Shown here one piece after another: positions 1-41,793 of a DNA stretch of 41,793 nucleotides (position 1 is the stretch's first letter; every line of letters starts with the position of its first letter). The position numbers and the translations under genes were made by a program. The notes beneath the pieces were generated by a model. The model was not told the DNA's origin, searched no databases, and saw only the letters and a list, made by a program, of their open reading frames with translations. Source of the DNA: a virus; the IMG/VR virus record IMGVR_UViG_3300005563_000014, positions 1 through 41,793 of that record; one strand, written 5' to 3'.

Positions 1-110
1 CCTGAAAACGGAATACGGCAACAACGAGGGCCGCATTGACGCCTACATAGTTTCGACTGGCGAGTTCTTCTGGGGATCGCCACCGCAGAGCATCGCCAGC
101 CAGCGTGAGG
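1..110. repeat. Terminal direct repeat, left copy
   Basis: The first 110 bases are identical to 41684-41793. Such an exact end overlap is what an assembler leaves on a circular or circularly permuted genome; a true short packaging repeat is also possible. A single reading frame crosses the junction intact, which supports physical continuity of the ends. Confidence 0.95.
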
Positions 111-1130: not shown

Positions 1131-1195
1131 GTGCGCCGCGCCAGCGTCTTTGAGAGCCTTCTCGCCAACTGCCTTCTCCCTTGGGACGAGCAGCA

Positions 1196-1603
1196 GTGAA
1201 CGCGCTCGAATCTCTCTTGCGCGAGCACATTCGCGGTTCCCGTGAGGCCGTGGCCGAGGCGGTGCGCCGGATCGACGCGCTGGAGGATCTGACAGAGAAG
1301 CTCGCGAAGAGGCCCCCGGCGCCGATGGACCAGGTTCGGGCAAACGGGTGGTCTGACGAAGAGGACGAGATTATCCGGCAATACTACCCTGGCGGTGGCC
1401 CGGCTGCCTGCATTCCGTTTCTTCGCCACCGGACGGCGCTTGCTATCCGCACTCACGCGCGAAGGCTCGGCGTTGTCAGCAATCCGAACATGCAGCGATT
1501 CTGGTGCGATCAGTGCCAGTCGAAGGTGAACCGTAACCAGGTCGCCGCCTGTCAGTCGAAATTCTGCCAGGGCAAGAAGCTGGTCGCCGCGGGCGACGCA
1601 TGA
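1196..1603 (+). CDS. HTH (Myb/SANT-like) plus zinc-finger protein
   Basis: The product of about 135 residues starts at GTG 1196 (a TTG at 1181 in the same frame is the alternative). A central segment WSDEEDEIIRQYYPGGG followed by a second helix pair (ALAIRTHARRLGV) looks like the Myb/SANT or GcrA-type DNA-binding domains common in phages. The tail has CDQCQSK...CQSKFC, a likely zinc site. It ends as ATGA overlapping the helicase gene. It may be a regulator or a replication accessory factor. DNA binding is inferred; the target is unknown. Confidence 0.7.
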   Translation: MNALESLLREHIRGSREAVAEAVRRIDALEDLTEKLAKRPPAPMDQVRANGWSDEEDEIIRQYYPGGGPAACIPFLRHRTALAIRTHARRLGVVSNPNMQRFWCDQCQSKVNRNQVAACQSKFCQGKKLVAAGDA

Positions 1604-2987: not shown

Positions 2988-3023
2988 TGCTGAGTCGCTC
3001 TACCCCAAGGAGGCAAAAAGCAG

Positions 3024-10551: not shown

Positions 10552-10965
10552 ATGGCAAATGAATCGCGTATCGTGGACATGTGCAGACGTATAACTAGAC
10601 AGTTAGACCTCGGAAAAGGTATGTTCTTCGACCCCGATTCGCTGGCGCTGCTGGCGGAGACCGGGGCTTACGAGCTTATACAACAGAGGGCGGCCGAACA
10701 CCTCAAGCGTAAATGCCAAGAGCGAAAAGACCTAAGCCACTCTACCAGAGGGGAAAGTATCGGCTCGACCCGCCAAGGGACGGCCGGGAAGCCCTTATCA
10801 TCACCTGGTATGACCCCGAGCGAAAGCGGGAAAGAAGCATTAGCGCGGGTACGGCGGACCCTGAAAACGCCGCCAAAGTCGTCGACAAAATGTTCGACGA
10901 GTCGCAAGGTCGTTCCTTTTGCCCGACCTGTGGGCAGCCGATCCAAGGGGTCCGCAGCCCGCTAG
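10552..10965 (+). CDS. Pre-integrase small gene with out-of-frame tail
   Basis: The ORF is 137 codons, but only the first about 55 (MANESRIVDMCRRITRQLDL ... AAEHLKRK) look like a natural protein; the rest is low-complexity Ser/Lys sequence read out of frame from the integrase gene, a 253-base overlap. In another frame the DNA at 10709 reads TAAATG, i.e. a stop followed at once by the integrase start, so the ancestral gene may have ended there and later lost frame. It may be an excisionase-like or regulatory protein; unproven. Confidence 0.5.
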   Translation: MANESRIVDMCRRITRQLDLGKGMFFDPDSLALLAETGAYELIQQRAAEHLKRKCQERKDLSHSTRGESIGSTRQGTAGKPLSSPGMTPSESGKEALARVRRTLKTPPKSSTKCSTSRKVVPFARPVGSRSKGSAAR

Positions 10966-11921
10966 TCCTCGACGCCATAGACCGCTACGCGCGCTCCAAG
11001 GAGCTGCTGCCGGGCGCTGACGCTATCCGCCACCGCCTGCGCCACGTCACCGAGTACATCGAGGAGACGGGGCAGGAGGAGGTTCGTTGCAACCAGGTTG
11101 ACCGCGAGTGGGTCGATAAGCTCCGGCGGTGGCTGGCGGCAAAGCCGGTTCGCGCAGGCGACACCGAGCGCGAGCGGGCGCTATCGACGATCGAGAACAG
11201 TGTCCTTCAGCTCGCCGCGGCGATCAACTACGCCGACGACCACGGGGCTCGCTTCCGGCCGATCCCTGCGAAGGAAGTCAACCGGACGCCGCTGTATCGG
11301 GCCAACGTCGACACGCTGGCGAAGATGTTCGCCTACGCGCTCGAAGGCGAGAAGCGGAAGAACCTCCTGAACTTCCTGCGGCTGTCGGTGCTGACGCTCG
11401 GGCGGCCCGATGCCGTTCTGGAAGCGACGACCGACCCCGCCAAGGACCAGTGGCACCCCGGCGCTAACATATTCAATCTCAACCCAAAGAACCGCCGGCA
11501 GACGAAGAAGTACCGGGCGGTGGTGCCGATCGCTCGGCAGGGCGTCGACTGGCTCAACTCGCTGCCCAAGGGGCCGGTCATCGCCGTCAACTCGATTCGC
11601 AAGGCGTGGGACACGATGGCGGCCGACATCGGTCTCCCCGGTGATCGCGAGTCGGGGGCGAAGTTGATCCGGCGCTCGATGGCCGATTTGCTTCGCAGCC
11701 GTATGCGCTCGACCGACTGGCCGGAGGTCGAAGCGTTCCTCGGGCACCGGAAATTCGATTCGGTTTCAGAGCTTTATGCACCCCTAAGACCAGATTATCT
11801 CGTGAACGCTCGCGCAAGTATCGAGCAAATAATCGACGAGATCGAAGCGCAGGTGCCTGATGCCTTTTACCGCGCGGATACCGCGCGGAGCCCCGAGCGC
11901 AGCGGCCGAAAAGCGGCCTAA
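10713..11921 (+). CDS. int: Tyrosine recombinase integrase
   Basis: The 402-residue protein has an N-terminal arm/core-binding half and a C-terminal catalytic half. Active-site candidates are Arg231 (LGRPDAV), Arg320/Arg321 in LIRRSMADLL, where the usual HxxR box reads R-RxxxxL, His345 (FLGHRKF) and nucleophile Tyr355 (ELYAPL). The His-to-Arg change in box II occurs in other proteobacterial phage integrases. The gene ends 15 bases before the tRNA-like attP core and its 3' end contains two arm-type repeats, so attP overlaps the gene end. Confidence 0.93.
   Translation: MPRAKRPKPLYQRGKYRLDPPRDGREALIITWYDPERKRERSISAGTADPENAAKVVDKMFDESQGRSFCPTCGQPIQGVRSPLVLDAIDRYARSKELLPGADAIRHRLRHVTEYIEETGQEEVRCNQVDREWVDKLRRWLAAKPVRAGDTERERALSTIENSVLQLAAAINYADDHGARFRPIPAKEVNRTPLYRANVDTLAKMFAYALEGEKRKNLLNFLRLSVLTLGRPDAVLEATTDPAKDQWHPGANIFNLNPKNRRQTKKYRAVVPIARQGVDWLNSLPKGPVIAVNSIRKAWDTMAADIGLPGDRESGAKLIRRSMADLLRSRMRSTDWPEVEAFLGHRKFDSVSELYAPLRPDYLVNARASIEQIIDEIEAQVPDAFYRADTARSPERSGRKAA
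11868..11889 (+). repeat. Tandem arm-type repeats of attP (left arm)
   Basis: Two head-to-tail copies of TACCGCGCGGA (11868-11878 and 11879-11889) lie inside the integrase 3' end. A third copy is at 12089-12099, on the other side of the core. This spacing and orientation is typical of integrase arm-type binding sites. Confidence 0.55.
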
Positions 11922-20447: not shown

Positions 20448-20461
20448 TGTGAAGCGCGGTA
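20448..20461 (+). promoter_or_regulatory. Conserved 14-bp motif, site 2
   Basis: TGTGAAGCGCGGTA, identical to site 3 (29139-29152) over 17 bases (ATGTGTGAAGCGCGGTA). It lies 27 bases upstream of ATG 20421 and about 15 bases past the hairpin that follows the tailspike gene. Confidence 0.6.
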
Positions 20462-20475
20462 GTGGTACTAGATTT

Positions 20476-23181: not shown

Positions 23182-24389
23182 TATTCTTGCGCCGTACTGA
23201 GGACTTCAACGCGGCCTAGCGCCGCATTGTACACGCAACCGAGCACCAGCACCTTGCCCGCAACGGTAGTGGTCGGGAGAGTGAACCCGATACCTGTGTA
23301 CTGAGTGCCGTAAGCGATCGTCTGCGGGGTGCCGTTGTCCTTCACCCGGATAAGCCATCCCCACTCGTCCACCGCGGTCCCGCTTGGGTTCGCGAGCGTA
23401 AGCGCGGCGGCCTGAGCGGTGATGTTCACGGCGTCGTTCGAGAATGTTGGAGTGACCGTCGAAGCGGAGGCGACTGTTTGAACGTTGGGGGCCTTCGCCG
23501 CCTGCACGAAAGCGGTGGTCGCGATTTTGGTGGTGCTGTCCCCATAGGCCGGAGTGGTCGACGTTCCGCCCCCACTCAACGTCGCAGCGCCGGAAAGGCT
23601 GAGTGTGGTTCCGCTGAAGCCTGCGTTTCCGGTGATCAGCCCCGAGGCCGTCAGCGCAGCGAGAGTCGCCGCTCCGGTAACGGACAATGCGCCCCCGGCG
23701 CTTAGAGAGCCGGTGGACGACAAGCTGGCTATGGCGGACAGGTTTCCGCTATCGTCGAGGTGCAATATGGTCGCGCTGTAAGCGCTGTTGACGACCTCCA
23801 ACGCGCCCGAAAAGGCGCGTAGGTATTTGTTCGGGGTCGTCGCGCCGTTTCCTGTGAGCTGGATATTCGCGCCAGCCGGGTTCGAGGTATCCGCGAGCTT
23901 CAGTACAACCGAGTCCGTCCCGCTGCCGTTCAAAGTCAGCGCCGGAGTCGACCCGCCCGGTGCGGTAACGGTTGCTCCCCCACTCAACGTCGCAGCGCCG
24001 GAAAGGCTGAGCGTGGTTCCGCTGAAGCCAGCGTTTCCAGTGATTAGCCCCGAGGCCGTCAGCGCAGCGAGAGTCGCCGCTCCGGTAACGCTGAGCGTCG
24101 AAGATAGGCTGAGGGTCGTGCCGGTGAGGCCCCCTGTCAGCGCACCCCCCGCCAGCGGCAAGTACGCCCCCAACTGAGACAGGTTCACCACGTCGTTAGG
24201 CAGCGTTCCGTTGGCGAGGTTGTGGATTTGTGTCGCATTGGCGTTCATGCCCGACGTACCGCCCTGGTCGAGCAGCGCGCGGTTGAGCGCGGAGAGCAGA
24301 TAGTTGAAGTCCGCCATCACCGGAACGGCGTCGGCCGTGGTGCCGTTGGAGAGCGGGTTCGGAAGCGCGAGGCCGTTATTTATCGCCAT
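23181..24389 (-). CDS. Tail fibre with internal repeats
   Basis: The 402-residue protein has an N-terminal segment resembling podovirus fibres (LPNPLSNGTTADAVPVMADF) and repeated modules of TLSLSGAATLSGG and ALTASGLITGNAGF. The DNA carries two 114-base imperfect copies 408 bases apart. Such repeats form trimeric beta-rich shafts. The C-terminal part (about 270-402) is likely the tip or assembly domain. It probably mediates host recognition. Confidence 0.8.
   Translation of the reverse strand: MAINNGLALPNPLSNGTTADAVPVMADFNYLLSALNRALLDQGGTSGMNANATQIHNLANGTLPNDVVNLSQLGAYLPLAGGALTGGLTGTTLSLSSTLSVTGAATLAALTASGLITGNAGFSGTTLSLSGAATLSGGATVTAPGGSTPALTLNGSGTDSVVLKLADTSNPAGANIQLTGNGATTPNKYLRAFSGALEVVNSAYSATILHLDDSGNLSAIASLSSTGSLSAGGALSVTGAATLAALTASGLITGNAGFSGTTLSLSGAATLSGGGTSTTPAYGDSTTKIATTAFVQAAKAPNVQTVASASTVTPTFSNDAVNITAQAAALTLANPSGTAVDEWGWLIRVKDNGTPQTIAYGTQYTGIGFTLPTTTVAGKVLVLGCVYNAALGRVEVLSTAQE
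23569..23682 (+). repeat. Tail fibre internal repeat, copy 1
   Basis: A 114-base imperfect direct repeat of 23977-24090, differing at only a few positions. It encodes a shaft module read on the minus strand. Confidence 0.85.
23977..24090 (+). repeat. Tail fibre internal repeat, copy 2
   Basis: The second copy of the 114-base repeat, 408 bases (136 codons) from the first. Confidence 0.85.
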
Positions 24390-29138: not shown

Positions 29139-29152
29139 TGTGAAGCGCGGTA
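29139..29152 (+). promoter_or_regulatory. Conserved 14-bp motif, site 3
   Basis: TGTGAAGCGCGGTA lies in the 132-base gap between the capsid gene and the gene at 28610-29068, just past the hairpin at 29157-29182 when read on the minus strand. Confidence 0.6.
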
Positions 29153-29156
29153 AGCT

Positions 29157-29200: not shown

Positions 29201-30547
29201 TTAGCCGAAGGCGTAGGCGGTGCTCGTTGACTCAATGCGGGTCGCGAAGTTCACATTGAGAATGATGGTCGAGTACATGAGCTTCCAGCTCAGCACTCGA
29301 ATCTGGTTCATCGGGTCGCTCTTGTCGGCGTCCTTCAGCAGCGCGAATTTCGCGTTGTCGAGCTTCACCTGGCCGTAGGCGCCGCGTCCGAACACATAGG
29401 TCGGATAGGCGGTGATGCCGGTGGCAGGAGCAGCCGGAGGCGTCTGAGCCACGCCGGTCCCGGTGATGGTGACGGTCTGGCCGCCGGCAAGCTGCACGGC
29501 CTGCCCCGACAGCGGGCCATAGGTCGGACCCAGGGCGCAAAGGCCAAGGTTCGCCGGGCTTGAAGTCGTCCCGATGTACACGCTGAAGGTATACCCCGGA
29601 AGCGACGGCAAAGTGACGGTGACGGAACCGTTCGGGCCGGTGACGGCGATTCCCGTCGACACCTGGTAAACCCGGCTCTCGTACTGGTTCTGCGTGTCGG
29701 ACGCAGTAACCTGCACGAAATAGGTGCCGGTCGCGAGACTCCCGGTGGTCGCCGCGGTGCCGCCAAGGGTGGCAACGCCGGTCCAGCTCGGGACCATGTT
29801 GCTCTCCTGGAAGCGGGTGCCGCGCCACTCACCCACGTCGAAGTTGTACAGCCGGTTGATGTCGCTGTACTGCCACGCCGTCTTAACGTCGGACGAGTTC
29901 GCGAAGTCCGCAATGATGAACGGATGCGCGATCGCGACGTAGTGCGGCATGATGCGCGGGTTACTGGAGGCATTGGCGCCGCCACGATCCGCGTCCTGCT
30001 CGGTGTCGGTCTGCTCGTCGCCAAGAAACCGAGGCGCCCCGAGGTTCACCATGAGAGCGACGGTACGGTTAATGGTTGCGGTATCGAGAATGTCGCCAGC
30101 CTGAAGCGCTGCGCGCGAGCCACGGCTGTTGACGTAGTTCACCTGCGTCAGCCCTTGAAGCGAGTTGAAGGTGTTGCGCTCCAGCGTCTCCGACATCTGG
30201 AGGGCCATCAGCTCGTTCGCCTTGTCGACGAGCGGGTGCTTGATGGTCATTTCGGCAACATCGGTGATTTTCACCAGGTCGCCCCATTGCTGGCAGGTGG
30301 CGCTCACCTGCGTCAGCGTCAGGCTCTCGCCTTGCGTTGGCGGAACGCCTTCGCTGATTGCCTGGAATGGCAGAGGAAGACGGTTGAAGCGCGTCGCCGT
30401 GTAGGTGACGCCGCGGCCCTTATCGAGCGTCAGCGGGTCGCCGAAGCGGTACGCGCAGAGGCGTCGCCGGGCCAAGGGCAGAACCTTGTCGGCGATATAG
30501 TTTTCAATGTCCGAAGTGAAGCTCGAGTAAGTGTTCGTCCCGGCCAT
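29201..30547 (-). CDS. Major capsid protein, N4-gp56 family with insert
   Basis: The 448-residue protein fits the N4-gp56 capsid family: IEGNY-like start, RFNRLPLPFQAISEG, KITDVAEMTIKHPLVDKA and QMSETLERNTFN, and the late TYVFGRGAYGQVKLDN. About residues 253-378 are an extra beta-sandwich-like domain (FVQVTASDTQNQYESRVY, TVTLPSLPGYTFSVYIGTTSS) not expected in the plain fold. It is preceded by AAAGGGA. It forms the icosahedral shell with the scaffold encoded upstream. Confidence 0.9.
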   Translation of the reverse strand: MAGTNTYSSFTSDIENYIADKVLPLARRRLCAYRFGDPLTLDKGRGVTYTATRFNRLPLPFQAISEGVPPTQGESLTLTQVSATCQQWGDLVKITDVAEMTIKHPLVDKANELMALQMSETLERNTFNSLQGLTQVNYVNSRGSRAALQAGDILDTATINRTVALMVNLGAPRFLGDEQTDTEQDADRGGANASSNPRIMPHYVAIAHPFIIADFANSSDVKTAWQYSDINRLYNFDVGEWRGTRFQESNMVPSWTGVATLGGTAATTGSLATGTYFVQVTASDTQNQYESRVYQVSTGIAVTGPNGSVTVTLPSLPGYTFSVYIGTTSSPANLGLCALGPTYGPLSGQAVQLAGGQTVTITGTGVAQTPPAAPATGITAYPTYVFGRGAYGQVKLDNAKFALLKDADKSDPMNQIRVLSWKLMYSTIILNVNFATRIESTSTAYAFG

Positions 30548-31327: not shown

Positions 31328-31403
31328 ATTCGTTTCCTAGCCGATAACGTCGGCAAGACGATCGAGGGTGAGGTCACGGCCACCAGTCGGTGAGCGTCCA
31401 TAG

Positions 31404-31419
31404 TGTTTCACGTGGAACA
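31404..31419. promoter_or_regulatory. parS: parS-like centromere site
   Basis: TGTTTCACGTGGAACA; its reverse complement TGTTCCACGTGAAACA is the conserved chromosomal parS consensus (TGTTNCACGTGAAACA) bound by ParB/Spo0J. It is a near-perfect palindrome 77 bases upstream of the scaffold ATG. A chance 16-bp match in 41.7 kb is very unlikely. No ParB gene is visible in the window, so host ParB would be the binder. Confidence 0.75.
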
Positions 31420-31422
31420 CTG

Positions 31423-31436
31423 TGTCAAGTGCGGTA
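31423..31436 (+). promoter_or_regulatory. Conserved 14-bp motif, site 4
   Basis: TGTCAAGTGCGGTA directly abuts the parS-like site. On the minus strand, TTGACA (31423-31428 reversed) could act as a -35 box with a weak CACTAT -10 box. Confidence 0.6.
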
Positions 31437-31458
31437 ATTTCGTGCTATATGATTCGGT

Positions 31459-31657: not shown

Positions 31658-33778
31658 TTACTCTTTCCTTGGCATAGCGCTCGGGTCTCCGGCGCTTGCC
31701 ATCTGGTCGGGGTGAATCTGCCCCGGCGCACCCGGCTGCGACTGCGGTGGCCGGGGCTGGCCGCCCATCTGCGGACCCCCACCCGGCGCCTGCCCCTGCT
31801 GCGGCATGGACGCCCGCATCTGCTGCTCGGCCTTCGCCTGCGCGGCTTTCTGGTGGAGCATGATGTGCTTGCGGACGGTTCCGTGGGGGTCGCCGCCCTG
31901 CATCGCGGCCATGTGGACCTGGAGGTGCTGCGCGTCGTTGTCGGAAGGGTGAATCGGGGTGTCGAACCCGTGCTCCATCATTTCGTTTTCAATGTGGGGG
32001 TCGACCGAGATTAAATCCTCGGGGCTGAACACCTCCGGCGCCAGCACCGGACCAAACAGGTTCTCGACCATCTGGCTTATCACCGGGGCGAGGTTCATCT
32101 TGTAGCCGGGGTACGCCTGCGGCGGAATACCGCGCAGCACGTTCACCCCGGCAATCTGCTGCTGGAGCTTGGCCGCCGTCTTCGCCGCCTCTACCCCGTA
32201 CCACCGGAATTCCACCTTGCGGTCGATCTCCTGCGGCTCCAGCTCCTGCATAATCATCTTCTGCCCGACCGGGCCAAAGGACCGGATCAGCATCGAATCC
32301 TTTCGAAACTGGTGGTCTAGTTCGAGGATCAGTGTCAGCATAGGGGTTAGGACACCCTGCTCCAGAACCGCCACCGCGTCAGCAGTGGTGAGCAAGTCCA
32401 CCTGCTGCTCCTGCGCGATCTCGGCCTGATTCATTTTCCGGTTCTTGCCGGTGGTGCCGGGGATCATCGACGGGTTGACGCCGAGCGTCTGGAATATCTG
32501 CGAGCGGTACTCCATCACCCGCTCGGCCGCGTCCTTCCACATCTCCGGGAATTTCGCGAACTGCGTCGATTGCGGGTCGGTTTCCCAAATCGCAGCCGGG
32601 GCGAGCACCATGCTCCCGACCTTCGGGTTCTTCACCGGGTCGGTCATAATGATCGGAAGCAGCGAGAAGTGCCCGCTGTCCGCGCCTTCGTTCACGGTGT
32701 CGTTGGCGAGAATGTGGAAGTCGAGCACCGCCGCCACCGGGGCCTTGCCCTTGAACACGCCGCTCGTCTTGTCGATCGCGCAGGAAATGAACGGCACCTT
32801 GTCGCACCAGTACGGATTGCGCTTGATCGAGAGGAAAATCTTCTCGCCGGCATAGAGGATGCGGCACACACGCCGATCTTTTCCGACCTTGAGCTTGCAC
32901 CAGATTTCGTAAACGACAGCGACCTTTGCGCCGCGTTTGATCTTCACCCCGGCGGCCTCGCCCTGGGCCTTGGCGGTGTCTCCGCGGCCGGTCTTCTCCA
33001 GCGAACTCATCGTATCGAGAATCGCTTCGGCGGCGCTTTCGTCGATCTCCTTGTTGGCGACGCGGCGCTCGACTTCCCCCTTGGTCCAGCGGCGGATGAT
33101 CGCCACTCCGCCACCGATCTCCAGCGCCTGCTCAATCGTCTGTGCAGTGGCGGGAAAAATCGTAACGTCAGAGTCGGACAGCACTTCGATCACGGGGCCG
33201 CTATCGACGACCTCGCTTTCCTCCTCCATGTCCTCGATAGGCTCGGCCGGAAGCTCGTTGCCCTCTTCATCCTCCACCGGGCGCTTGACCCGGCGGGTGA
33301 CGTGGCGGGTGCGTTCCTCCCAACTGATGTACAGGTTGTACTGCCCTTCGAGGTCGCCGTTGATGAGCAGCGGATCGACCACGTTGTTCTTGAGCTTGAG
33401 CTGGTGAATGTAATGCTCAAGCAGGCTGATCGTCGCGTAGGGGGTGTCGCCCGAGCCGAACGCCTCGATGTGCTTCTGGTTCTCAGGGAAGAGCTGGTTC
33501 GAGAACCGCGTCTGCCGGGCCAGCACCGCATCGCGGACGAACGGTGTGCAAATCTCGCTGGTGCCGTGGTAGAATTGACGGTCGGACAGCGTGACGTTGA
33601 AAGCGTCCCAGTGGTCGAGCGCCGATTCGTTCCGGTCGCTCTGCCCCTCGAACGCCTTGGCGGCGGTCTCGCACACTTTGAGCGCCTGCTCGACGATCTT
33701 CTTTCGGCCCGACAGCTCGGCGTCCCGATCCGGCTTCTTGCGCTCCGGCTGCTCTTGCCCTTCGGTCTCTTCGTCCAT
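31658..33778 (-). CDS. Portal protein
   Basis: The 706-residue protein has portal features: long helical stem region, an EGGSLLP-like GADSGHFSLLPIIMTDP segment, VNPSMIPGTTGKNRKMNQAEIAQEQQ in the C-half, and a Gln/Pro-rich tail. It lies between the large terminase and scaffold genes, as in most tailed phages. It forms the dodecameric DNA channel at one capsid vertex. N-terminus MDEETEGQEQPERKK is acidic and disordered. Confidence 0.88.
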   Translation of the reverse strand: MDEETEGQEQPERKKPDRDAELSGRKKIVEQALKVCETAAKAFEGQSDRNESALDHWDAFNVTLSDRQFYHGTSEICTPFVRDAVLARQTRFSNQLFPENQKHIEAFGSGDTPYATISLLEHYIHQLKLKNNVVDPLLINGDLEGQYNLYISWEERTRHVTRRVKRPVEDEEGNELPAEPIEDMEEESEVVDSGPVIEVLSDSDVTIFPATAQTIEQALEIGGGVAIIRRWTKGEVERRVANKEIDESAAEAILDTMSSLEKTGRGDTAKAQGEAAGVKIKRGAKVAVVYEIWCKLKVGKDRRVCRILYAGEKIFLSIKRNPYWCDKVPFISCAIDKTSGVFKGKAPVAAVLDFHILANDTVNEGADSGHFSLLPIIMTDPVKNPKVGSMVLAPAAIWETDPQSTQFAKFPEMWKDAAERVMEYRSQIFQTLGVNPSMIPGTTGKNRKMNQAEIAQEQQVDLLTTADAVAVLEQGVLTPMLTLILELDHQFRKDSMLIRSFGPVGQKMIMQELEPQEIDRKVEFRWYGVEAAKTAAKLQQQIAGVNVLRGIPPQAYPGYKMNLAPVISQMVENLFGPVLAPEVFSPEDLISVDPHIENEMMEHGFDTPIHPSDNDAQHLQVHMAAMQGGDPHGTVRKHIMLHQKAAQAKAEQQMRASMPQQGQAPGGGPQMGGQPRPPQSQPGAPGQIHPDQMASAGDPSAMPRKE

Positions 33779-33785
33779 CGCTCTC

Positions 33786-35753
33786 TTACCTTCTTGCCGA
33801 TATGTATCGGCGCCCCGTGTCCGTCATTCCGTAGGAAAGATCCTCGCGGTCTTCCATCGCGCCCGTGCCCGTCAGCGCGACGAAGCTCTCCAGCGCTTCG
33901 ACTATGGCCCGGTACGGCCCCGGCTCGGCGGTTGCTTCGAGCACCCCGCGCGTGTTCACGTACCGGCAGTAGCCGCTGGAAAGCCCGTTCAGCGTCCATG
34001 TGGCCGAGCTGGAGATGCGCACGGCAGGAAAGCCCTTGCGGTTTCTCTCCAGAAGATCGGAAAGGAGAGGCTGCCCCTGCGCCGGCAGGCCGCCGCGCTG
34101 CGAATTCATCGGAACCCTGCGCGCTGCCTGCACCAGTCCGACGTTCGAAAACTTATCGAAGTGGCTCGGGGGGAACACCGCCGTCACTTGCTGGCCCGCT
34201 TCCAGCCGGGCCTCGGTGGCGATGCGCGAGAAGGTATCGACTTCGTTTCCTTCATAGAACCAGTCCGCGAGCACATAGAGCACTCCGTCGCTCCACTGGA
34301 TAAGCACCGCGCCGACGCCGTTCTGAGTCGTCTGAACCGCCAGCCACGGCTTCGCCCCCTGCACCCTCCGAAGGCCCTCGAAGATATGCTCCTTGTGGAA
34401 GTTCTCGTGGATCGGCTGTCCGGGCTTCAGCTTCAGCGCGTAGGCAAGGGCGTTGGGAGTGTCGATGCGGCCGGTGGGGAAACCGAGAAGCTGGTCACGA
34501 AGGTCGGGAAGCTCCTTGGCGAACAGCACCTGCTTGGCCTTGAAATAAGGCTGCAACCCGCCGATGAAGTCGAGCTTGCCCTTCGGCGCCCGCATCGAGC
34601 GGAACGGGATCGAGATCCCGCGCTTCACCTGCTCCGACCGGATCGGCTGGAGCAGGAATTCGTTCAGGCCGTCTTCCTCGACCCCGATCCACACCGGGGG
34701 CAAATCGCCGGCCGCGCATTCGAATATCGCGTCCACGATCGCGTCGGGCAGGAGCTGCTTTCCCCAAGCGTCCCACACCACGAGCTTGTGCCCGGCCCAA
34801 CTCCACGCTGCGAACCCCGTCGTCGCCGACTTGGCGTTCGTGGTTCGCGCCGGGTCGAACATCGCATAGACCGCCTGCCAGGTGCGAACAGTCGGGTGAA
34901 CAACGATGTCCTCGGGGCGGAAGGTCCGCGACTTGTTGCCGCGGGCCATGCACAGGTACTCGCGCTCGAAATCGTCATACAGCCCCTGCTTTACGAACGT
35001 GTCGCGAAGCTCGTCGATCTTTTCGAGGGGGAACCGATCGGCCCACGTCGACCGCCTTTGCCCTTCCCCGTCGAGATGCTCGATCGGGAAGACCTTGCTC
35101 TCCCACCCCGGCGCTTCGAGGAGGCGAACCGCCAGCGCGTCATTGTCGAGGGGCGTGGCCGCCACGCGAACGAAGGCGTTGACATCGCAGGCGGGCAGGA
35201 GCTCAGCGAAGAACCATTGCCGGGTGCGAGCGCGGCGGTCCTTGTCCGACACGCTCTCCATCGTCTCCACGTCGTCGCAGAACACTGCGTCGGGGCGAAT
35301 ATCCTCGAACTTGATCCCGCGCAGCGCCTGCCCCCGGCCGAGCGCCTTGATCCTCACCCCGTTCGAAAGCACGATTTCGCCGTCGGCCCAGGTCGGACCT
35401 TTCAAGTCTCCAAACAGCGTCATCAGGTGCTCGTTGGTCTCAATCTCGCGCTTGATCGCGTGGACGCGCTCGCACGACCGCTCGAACGTTTCCCCGATCA
35501 CCAGCGCGTTCTTGAACTCGCGGAAGCCCGCCCGGATCGTGATCGCTTCTTCCGCGATGGTCGACTTGGCCCCGCCCCGGAACACCATGTCGATCGACTT
35601 CGGCACCTCGGGGTTGTGCCAGTCGAGGATCATCTGGCGGTGGAAGTCCTGGGTGATGTTCGTGTGGCGGTGCGGGAACAGAACCTCATGCGCCAGCACC
35701 CGGTCCCGGTATAGCCGGTCGAATAGCTCCTGGTGGGCGTCGAAGTGAAGCAC
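33786..35753 (-). CDS. terL: Large terminase subunit
   Basis: The 655-residue protein has the ATPase and nuclease halves of TerL. Walker A is RGGAKST (59-65, Lys63), Walker B is DAVFCDD (Asp160-Asp161), and ATPase motif III lies near VAATPLDND. The nuclease part contains MFDPART (first acidic residue), GVEEDG and LDFIGG. It packages DNA into the head. It starts at GTG 35753. No small terminase is clearly recognised upstream; the 45- and 44-residue proteins are candidates. Confidence 0.93.
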   Translation of the reverse strand: MLHFDAHQELFDRLYRDRVLAHEVLFPHRHTNITQDFHRQMILDWHNPEVPKSIDMVFRGGAKSTIAEEAITIRAGFREFKNALVIGETFERSCERVHAIKREIETNEHLMTLFGDLKGPTWADGEIVLSNGVRIKALGRGQALRGIKFEDIRPDAVFCDDVETMESVSDKDRRARTRQWFFAELLPACDVNAFVRVAATPLDNDALAVRLLEAPGWESKVFPIEHLDGEGQRRSTWADRFPLEKIDELRDTFVKQGLYDDFEREYLCMARGNKSRTFRPEDIVVHPTVRTWQAVYAMFDPARTTNAKSATTGFAAWSWAGHKLVVWDAWGKQLLPDAIVDAIFECAAGDLPPVWIGVEEDGLNEFLLQPIRSEQVKRGISIPFRSMRAPKGKLDFIGGLQPYFKAKQVLFAKELPDLRDQLLGFPTGRIDTPNALAYALKLKPGQPIHENFHKEHIFEGLRRVQGAKPWLAVQTTQNGVGAVLIQWSDGVLYVLADWFYEGNEVDTFSRIATEARLEAGQQVTAVFPPSHFDKFSNVGLVQAARRVPMNSQRGGLPAQGQPLLSDLLERNRKGFPAVRISSSATWTLNGLSSGYCRYVNTRGVLEATAEPGPYRAIVEALESFVALTGTGAMEDREDLSYGMTDTGRRYISARR

Positions 35754-40746: not shown

Positions 40747-40911
40747 ATGCCACAAGTAATCACCGGGCGCCCAATCGAGGACTGGGTACAGGACTATCTT
40801 GATCGCCAGAAGCTAGACGGGCCCGATCCCATCGATGTTGTGGTGAGGCTGGTCACAAATGCGTTTCGTGAAGAACTAGCCAAGATAAAAGGTTCGTTAA
40901 ATGACCAATAA
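40747..40911 (+). CDS. Small hypothetical protein
   Basis: The 54-residue protein starts at ATG 40747 after GGGAGGT. It is helical and acidic (DWVQDYLDRQKLDGPDPIDV). It overlaps the following cassette gene by 11 bases. No family is recognised. Confidence 0.65.
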   Translation: MPQVITGRPIEDWVQDYLDRQKLDGPDPIDVVVRLVTNAFREELAKIKGSLNDQ

Positions 40912-41092
40912 ATCCGCACTGCTGGAACTGGCGTCCCGCGCAGCAGTGGCACAAGTGTGGCCACGGTCTGTTGCAGATAGCAACGCCGAGCATCTTTCGC
41001 CAAGGCAAATCGAGATGCTCTACGCCGCGTCTGCTTGGGCTTACGATGCCGCCGCCGCACTCAGGGCACTAGCAAAGGAGAAGGGGGAATGA
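40901..41092 (+). CDS. Cassette gene B1, hypothetical protein
   Basis: The 63-residue protein starts MTNKSALLELASRAA and ends ALRALAKEKGE. The ends match the 105-residue gene at 398, but the middle (HLSPRQIEMLYAASAWAYD) differs. It is the first gene of the second cassette and is ATGA-coupled to the next. Confidence 0.75.
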   Translation: MTNKSALLELASRAAVAQVWPRSVADSNAEHLSPRQIEMLYAASAWAYDAAAALRALAKEKGE

Positions 41093-41093
41093 G
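41055..41093 (+). repeat. Cassette anchor repeat 1, copy B
   Basis: Identical to 678-716 (39 bases). Confidence 0.9.
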
Positions 41094-41469
41094 TGAGACT
41101 GATAGCGACAAATTTCACGCGCACGACGGCATCTACGCCAGCCGTTCGTTTGGCGATTTTGTCGAGTTCCATCAGGGCGGCAAATATCTCTTCTCGTTCA
41201 ACGCGGTAGAGTGGGCGACAATCATAGCCTATGTGTCGGTCGGCGGTTATTCCGAAGACAAGTATCGTGCGGCCTTGGCGCTGCACCGCAATGACGAGCG
41301 ATATTGGTCAAAAGAGTTTTCCCGCCTTCGCGCGCTTTCAGGGAAAATGTTCTCTGCGTTGACCGCTATCCAAGCGTGGATACGATCACCGTCTAACAAT
41401 CCGCCGCGGTTCGACCTCATGGATGAGGCGATCGCGGAAGCGTCACGCACCGAGGGCGCTCTCCGATGA
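41089..41469 (+). CDS. Cassette gene B2, hypothetical protein
   Basis: The 126-residue protein (MSETDSDKFHAHDGIYASRS) shows no relation to the zinc-finger gene in the same position of cassette A. It has YLFSFNAVEWATIIAYVSVGG and a helical C-terminus (FDLMDEAIAEASRTE). No family is recognised. It overlaps the junction gene as ATGA. Confidence 0.7.
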   Translation: MSETDSDKFHAHDGIYASRSFGDFVEFHQGGKYLFSFNAVEWATIIAYVSVGGYSEDKYRAALALHRNDERYWSKEFSRLRALSGKMFSALTAIQAWIRSPSNNPPRFDLMDEAIAEASRTEGALR

Positions 41470-41498
41470 CCGACACACCCGAACGCGAGCTGATCGAG
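41466..41498 (+). repeat. Cassette anchor repeat 2, copy B
   Basis: Identical to 864-896 (33 bases). Confidence 0.9.
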
Positions 41499-41793
41499 GC
41501 GCTGCGAAGCCCAACGCAATGGTCGTGCATATTCGAGTACGATGGACAACCGCGCTATGGAACAACCGACGCACCAATACGCGCAGCCGATACCATCGAA
41601 GCGTTACTATCAAGGGTAGATAAGCTGGAAGAGGCGCTGCGGGAATGCCCGATTGGCCTGTTCTGGAGCGGCGAGGAACTTTGCCTGAAAACGGAATACG
41701 GCAACAACGAGGGCCGCATTGACGCCTACATAGTTTCGACTGGCGAGTTCTTCTGGGGATCGCCACCGCAGAGCATCGCCAGCCAGCGTGAGG
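41466..41793 (+). CDS. Junction-spanning small protein, N-terminal part
   Basis: This gene begins MTDTPERELIEALRSP and continues across the contig end to TGA 311-313; the joined reading frame is 176 codons. Shared anchors with the gene at 864-1130 are its first 33 bases and 41592-41632. Its middle (WSCIFEYDGQPRYGTTDAPI) is distinct. The function is not recognised. Confidence 0.8.
   Translation, partial: MTDTPERELIEALRSPTQWSCIFEYDGQPRYGTTDAPIRAADTIEALLSRVDKLEEALRECPIGLFWSGEELCLKTEYGNNEGRIDAYIVSTGEFFWGSPPQSIASQRE
41592..41632 (+). repeat. Cassette anchor repeat 3, copy B
   Basis: Identical to 990-1030 (41 bases). Confidence 0.9.
41684..41793. repeat. Terminal direct repeat, right copy
   Basis: Identical to 1-110. 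It marks closure of the genome and lies inside the junction-spanning gene. Confidence 0.95.

Follow-up and report, generated by a model that had tools for sequence, protein, structure and literature searches.

A chromosomal-type parS site within a predicted scaffold-capsid promoter of a tailed phage genome lacking a ParB_N domain

Introduction

What might a tailed phage do with a chromosomal-type centromere site placed between its portal gene and the genes of its shell, and, if the host ParB protein binds there, does it mark, move, silence or time the phage genome? The phage partition systems of P1, N15 and mycobacteriophages come with ParA/ParB genes and centromeres of their own. To our knowledge, the sole phage for which a use of host ParB has been described is phi29, in sporulating Bacillus; its parS sites were reportedly described by Meijer et al. 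in 2005. The site considered here is a 16-mer, TGTTTCACGTGGAACA, recognized by reading the sequence and by pattern scanning in a stretch of 41,793 nt, the whole of which is hereafter called the window. An exact host chromosome-sorting tag inside what is probably the switch of the shell genes suggests that the phage may borrow the sorting protein of its host for the carriage or the timing of its genome.

Results

Identity of the site and its genomic setting

The complement of the 16-mer, TGTTCCACGTGAAACA, fits the chromosomal parS consensus TGTTNCACGTGAAACA, as quoted in excerpts of PMC7022226, at every position, in agreement with the exact match that a first-pass annotation had reported for that strand; the presence of a chromosomal-type parS in a phage genome is thus confirmed. 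The same annotation had proposed a genome-wide scan with one mismatch, and even at three mismatches 31404-31419 remains the sole matching place in the window (reported on both strands); dinucleotide shuffles of the window give a mean of 0.13 matches at this threshold. Markov models (orders 1-5) put the expected number of exact sites at 8e-7 to 2.5e-5 for the window, whose only CACGTG, a hexamer expected there 6-12 times, is the one within parS.

The window was treated as a complete genome because of an exact terminal direct repeat of 110 bp (Table 1). Beyond this repeat, several stretches of 36-63 bp (89-100% identity) recur between 400-1042 and 40902-41644, which suggests duplicated small genes at the genome ends. 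Tailed-phage genes were assigned by PHROGs (helicase, DNA polymerase, primase-helicase, capsid protein and terminase), and Pfam adds a PD-(D/E)XK nuclease and a phage ssDNA-binding protein. The parS site sits between the portal gene, which has no match in PHROG or Pfam, and a gene in the scaffold position, for which a family match was sought and none found; both are on the minus strand. An integrase-like match of the gene at 10713-11921 fell below the cut-off, received no support from PHROGs or the PDB and was discarded. A tail-fibre-like gene contains a 134-bp direct repeat (91%) at 23549-24090. A six-frame search of the window for ParB_N (PF02195), confined to this domain family, found no match, and with no such ParB gene in cis both a ParB of the phage's own and a self-contained phage ParABS were rejected. 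The earlier description of the locus as a host-type site in a phage without ParB is supported by the chance figures, by the lack of ParB_N in an apparently complete genome and by two relatives, described below, that carry the site in the corresponding position.

Table 1. Coordinates of the features discussed, in window positions; promoter elements are predicted
Feature	Position	Strand	Remarks
Terminal direct repeat, left copy	1..110		100% identical to 41684-41793
Sister promoter box CTACCGCGCTTCACA	20448..20462	-	3 mismatches; without parS
Sister promoter box TTACCGCGCTTCACA	29139..29153	-	Past the capsid gene; 2 mismatches; spacer without parS
Major capsid protein gene	29201..30547	-	phrog_1357, E 2.3e-30
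Scaffold-position gene, 245 aa	30590..31327	-	Named by position only; first gene downstream of the parS promoter
Leader inverted repeat GCCGACGTTATCGGC (also as GCCGACGNTATCGGC)	31340..31354	-	Directly before the scaffold ribosome-binding site
-10-like element CACTAT	31400..31405	-	17 nt from the -35; CATTAT in L003 and L082
20-bp inverted repeat AGTGTTTCACGTGGAACACT	31402..31421		1 mismatched pair; parS inside; read from the sequence
parS-type 16-bp site TGTTTCACGTGGAACA	31404..31419		14-bp core GTTYCACGTGRAAC intact
-35 element TTGACA of the predicted scaffold promoter	31423..31428	-	Kept in 6/6 leader records
Phage promoter box TTACCGCACTTGACA	31423..31437	-	Includes the -35; conserved motif of the first-pass annotation
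Portal gene	31658..33778	-	Upstream neighbour of parS; one isolate phage portal, 20.9% identity, E 2e-9
Terminase large subunit gene	33786..35753	-	phrog_38, E 6.5e-44
Terminal direct repeat, right copy	41684..41793		Suggests a complete genome

The predicted scaffold-capsid promoter

On the minus strand the elements follow one another as TTACCGCAC TTGACA CA GTGTTCCACGTGAAA CACTAT, the first two bases of CACTAT being the last two of parS, so that a predicted promoter TTGACA-N17-CACTAT, its 17-nt spacer filled by parS, precedes the scaffold and capsid genes. This geometry (-35, parS spacer, -10) fits a host-protein site overlapping a phage promoter, the promoter being a predicted one that is outside the list returned by a generic promoter scan; its omission is attributed to the weak -10, which matches three of the six consensus bases in the window and four of six in the relatives L003 and L082. 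Regulation of the scaffold/capsid unit, one of the roles suggested at first pass, gains weight from the fact that parS fills the predicted spacer. The 14-bp motif that was then described as conserved and directly abutting parS does exist as a conserved box, probably a phage promoter box, but the abutment does not hold, as three bases separate the two.

Similar boxes (TACCGCRCTTSACA) occur at 29139-29153 and 20448-20462, in gaps between late genes and on the same strand as the scaffold box; the former and its counterparts in two relatives (L002 and L070) have CATGTT/CATTGT-type -10s at an equal distance. Of these three boxes in the window, parS accompanies the scaffold copy only. The inverted repeat further down the scaffold leader is near-invariant across the six records that share this leader (window, L002, L003, L082, L255 and L259) and, with no covariation to test, GCCGACGNTATCGGC is a possible RNA hairpin.

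Relatives with the same leader

A search of IMG/VR with the leader pattern returned five records, L255, L256 (= L003), L257 (= L002), L258 (= L082) and L259, making six with the window, and the box (from its second base) and the -35 are kept in all of them. The parS site is present in three of the six leaders: it is exact in the window and in L003 (16/16), and in L082 it matches at 15/16 with an edge mismatch and an intact core. The search at the same place in related phages that had been proposed from the window thus recovered the site twice, so that the absence of conservation named in advance as a refutation was not observed. The 17-nt spacing between -35 and -10 is constant among the three carriers, which have diverged to 75-81% portal nucleotide identity.

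The leaders of L002, L255 and L259 lack parS and retain the box and the -35; L255 and L259 are near-identical to each other, and their spacer, GCTCTAGCGTGACTTATT, has one extra base and looks like a decayed or a precursor parS. Since such close relatives keep the promoter elements without it, the leader parS is dispensable. Portal nucleotide identity to the window is 79.4% for L002 and 76.3 and 81.3% for the two carriers other than the window, and scaffold amino acid identity is 61.4% for L002 and 70.8 and 85.2% for the carriers; on these figures, a single gain in an ancestor of the three carriers and losses elsewhere are both possible.

parS elsewhere in the phage family

A capsid scan (80 loci) and a portal scan (25 loci, 24 of them new) gave 104 related loci, and for 88 of them the whole record, 1.74 Mb in total, was searched with the pattern. 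For the 16 that remain, which include L048-L054 (with near-equal capsid scores) and L101 (from the contig that also carries L013), the scan covered partial stretches of the records and found nothing within two mismatches of parS in them. Exact parS occurs in three of the 88 records (L003, L028 and L099), the best site has one mismatch in four (L023, L072, L079 and L082), and 11 records in all have a match at up to two mismatches; the reversed pattern, used as a control, has none in 88 at that threshold. Three exact records compare with 0.001-0.002 expected (P 2e-10 to 1e-9), and if L003, whose site shares descent with that of the window, is set aside, two exact records still give P values of 5e-7 to 2e-6. 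Presence above chance and conservation were therefore both found, although 77 of the 88 relative records have no match at up to two mismatches.

The exact parS of L028 and that of L023, which has one edge mismatch, lie at the matching place within the portal gene, in frame, and encode VSRET; the two sites share 15 of 16 nucleotides at a protein identity of 58.8%. A constraint on the peptide was considered and rejected, since VSRET occurs in only these two of the 52 aligned portal rows (46 distinct), and it is the DNA word rather than the peptide that seems to be kept. In L099, the exact parS adjoins a candidate ATG of a small gene. The family thus carries parS in three different places, namely the scaffold leader, the interior of the portal gene and the side of a small gene, and the exact sites in the portal and small-gene relatives represent another variant of the consensus than that of the window.

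Several weaker matches were given no weight: those of L004 and L084 (2-3 mismatches, in the scaffold-position gene), L079 (one mismatch, in an ORF), L080/L081 (three and two mismatches, in a long ORF), L072 (one and two mismatches, with the CACGTG core broken, in ORFs) and the two-mismatch matches in the L041 and L069 records.

Among the 64 palindromic hexamers, CACGTG is the most avoided in the family (loci L002-L105 and the window), with 48 copies seen and 196 expected, and seven of these 48 copies, that of the window included, have at least 7 of the 10 parS flank bases. GGATCC, CTCGAG and AGATCT are the next most under-represented in the same set, and restriction avoidance is the likely cause of such hexamer under-representation.

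Bacterial genomes and possible hosts

A first scan of genome contigs with the capsid protein found no relatives; a profile scan of the genome collection gave 15 loci, including some on Paraburkholderia and Glaciimonas contigs (90-486 kb, prophage-like by their length) and in several bins. None of the loci of these 15 relatives has a site within one mismatch of parS, and one has a site with two mismatches. Matches were found in one of the 399 genomes of the order of the Paraburkholderia genome (G089 itself) and in one of the 61 of the order of the Kiloniellaceae bin (G097 itself). The 11 bacterial genomes with capsid relatives contain 0-2 exact parS each per 3-9 Mb, eight of them having one or two, and the reversed control is found in none of the 11; this rarity looks as expected of centromere sites.

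parS across other viruses

The exact parS pattern is found in at least 120 stretches of IMG/VR, compared with 10 for a permuted palindrome with the CACGTG core and two for the reversed pattern. Of 147 sites listed, 54 are not inside an ORF, bases outside ORFs making up 8% and some of the contigs being possible cellular contamination. Among 80 contigs listed, 41 are of at least 15 kb, and 38 of these 41 have no ParB_N at E 0.01. Promoter-like hexamers surround one of 141 sampled IMG/VR sites, versus six in a shifted control; they are thus not enriched, and a location of parS in promoters as a general rule is not supported.

In a set of 50,697 isolate-phage records, TGTTTCACGTGAAACA is present in 286, TGTTTCACGTGGAACA in 147 and TGTTCCACGTGGAACA in 58, these counts per word being overlapping and redundant (87 Listeria records for TGTTTCACGTGAAACA, for example), and two scrambled control words are present in none. 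The TGTTCCACGTGGAACA set includes 10 Klebsiella records, with two named-gene examples in a baseplate gene; as far as we know, the Klebsiella group is without a chromosomal ParABS, so that ParB may have nothing to do with a few isolate matches of this kind. Among the annotated records listed, those of Microbacterium have their sites within genes, as do those of Listeria, except WIL-1.

A non-random set of 14 isolate records was examined, chosen for host variety and in many cases because the site was outside genes; the matched parS is outside annotated genes in 13 of the 14, the exception being in gene 10 of phi29, and ParB_N was found in none of the 14. In Butyrivibrio phage Bo-Finn, the depositors predicted a promoter that overlaps the parS site between the portal and the protease/capsid genes, a parallel to the window. 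Other placements were also recorded. Two unrelated tailed phages, phiPsa374 (L270) and Vibrio phage phi 3 (L277), carry parS in annotated terminal repeats, and longer intergenic inverted repeats centred on parS are present in Gordonia phage Woes (L274), at positions 3001 and 3422. Several microviruses have one parS each, and the 5.9-kb inovirus-type genome of bajarodino virus 6 (PQ006149.1, L282) has 12 exact places, that is, six sites, as the palindrome is counted on both strands.

Discussion

Possible functions of the site

The reading favored here, with a probability of roughly 0.6, is that the site functions as a parS for the host's chromosomal ParB, which in this clade probably also occludes the capsid promoter. 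Its two parts are not equally secure: from the sequence comparisons, recruitment of host ParB is very likely, and much surer than promoter gating, whereas repression of the predicted scaffold-capsid promoter by ParB is a close call that falls slightly short of even odds. A benefit in partition or dormancy, which is compatible with promoter repression, is a tentative proposal and somewhat less probable again. In such a scheme, host ParB-CTP would load at the phage parS after infection; while ParB is in excess over phage genomes, its presence between -35 and -10 would bar RNA polymerase from the capsid operon, and the ParB-parS complex would let the phage genome ride the host ParA/SMC machinery. 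Replication of the phage DNA, with one parS per genome, would then dilute a fixed pool of ParB until the promoter opens, which would make ParB a copy-number timer or a deferment switch. Repression followed by release with copy number is suggested by precedents in excerpts of four papers: in Pseudomonas aeruginosa, promoters at parS3/parS4 are under repression by ParB (PMC5521831), ParB could reduce expression from a test promoter once parS had been inserted upstream of it (PMC7022226), multicopy parS on plasmids can kill Caulobacter by misdirecting segregation (PMC5815017), and host CtrA acts at phage promoters in phages of Alphaproteobacteria, for which lytic deferment has been proposed (PMC9437464).

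The promoter may, however, be incidental to the site. If parS served only for carriage by host ParB/ParA/SMC, for tethering or for retention in slow or dormant cells, its position would be immaterial, as is suggested by the three different places it occupies in the family, by the many isolate phages that have it outside annotated genes, terminal repeats included, and by phi29, which has exact sites and, according to excerpts of PMC9437464, uses host Spo0J for spore entrapment. The sites of L028, L023 and L099, which are outside this promoter, and the lack of hexamer enrichment (one versus six) also disfavor promoter control as a general function. An explanation by carriage alone leaves unaccounted for the placement of parS between -35 and -10 with a 17-nt spacing kept in three diverged relatives, and the similar overlap in Bo-Finn before the protease/capsid genes; it is considered unlikely, without being negligible. 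Improbable, by comparison, is a role as a decoy, in which the multiplying phage parS would pull ParB off the host origin and disturb segregation and SMC loading to the benefit of the phage. The lethality that extra plasmid-borne parS can have for Caulobacter is consistent with it, and one site per genome, at the copy numbers reached in a burst, could be a match for the ParB pool; nevertheless, a decoy would favor several sites where the window has one, and segregation defects arising late would bring little gain to a fast lytic phage.

Two further explanations dispense with ParB. A palindrome in a promoter spacer is the classic layout of an operator, and a small protein of the window (1181-1603) weakly matches the transcription-regulator family phrog_323 (E 0.0025), so that the protein binding there might be some repressor, of phage or host, distinct from ParB, the likeness to parS being coincidental; this is very improbable, given that exact parS, in another consensus variant, also occurs in the portal gene and beside an unrelated gene of relatives, that the sister promoters are without the palindrome and that the parS word is very rare in the 11 bacterial genomes. 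Chance occurrence of the 16-mer, with which the 77 relative records lacking parS would agree, is rejected as practically negligible in view of the low expectation (about 1e-5 sites in the window), the conservation of the site in the matching position of two relatives, its recurrence in the family (P 2e-10 to 2e-6, depending on whether L003 is counted), the clean controls, and the presence of parS around a CACGTG that is otherwise the palindromic hexamer most avoided by these phages.

If the favored reading of a working parS for host ParB is true, ParABS would be a host machine exploited by many phages, with hundreds of isolate records carrying the site and ParB_N in none of the 14 checked. The fullest version of this idea is doubtful: that a bare host parS enlisting ParB is a common and largely unrecognized strategy across many bacterial hosts and that here, in the core of the capsid promoter, the ratio of ParB to genomes times assembly, the virus using a centromere protein as a copy-number sensor.

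Comparison with known systems

In contrast to the ParABS of P1, N15 and the mycobacteriophages, in which partition machinery likewise acts on phage DNA, the window has no ParB_N match and a site of chromosomal type. Engineered parS has been used as a label (excerpts of PMC13190303 and PMC12427128), and no parS on ParB-less phages is reported in the accessible portions of PMC10197239 and PMC12704722; the open-access literature, as represented by such excerpts, gives no pointer to parS in ParB-less phages, phi29 being the sole natural case named (PMC9437464). The P. aeruginosa parS3/parS4 sites are adjacent to chromosomal promoters near oriC, whereas in the window parS would lie in the core of a phage promoter. 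The CtrA-type phages have sites for a host cell-cycle DNA-binding protein in their promoter regions, with binding and regulation demonstrated; the window would extend this arrangement to another protein, on the evidence of its sequence.

The closest likeness is to phi29, since parS-type sites are evidently not foreign to phages when phi29 carries exact copies. Both are tailed phages with an exact host-type parS and without ParB_N, a match of the window's site to its own host being assumed, and in phi29 the host ParB (Spo0J) is implicated in directing the phage genome. Nevertheless, the stretch of phi29 read contains four exact copies of TGTTTCACGTGGAACA, none of them near the annotated late-control region, and the host of phi29 forms spores, whereas the window has a single copy, within the spacer of its predicted scaffold-capsid promoter, and its relatives are found in proteobacterial genomes and assorted bins. 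What would be new with respect to phi29 is, therefore, a single site inside a predicted capsid promoter, in a lineage with relatives in proteobacterial genomes and bins.
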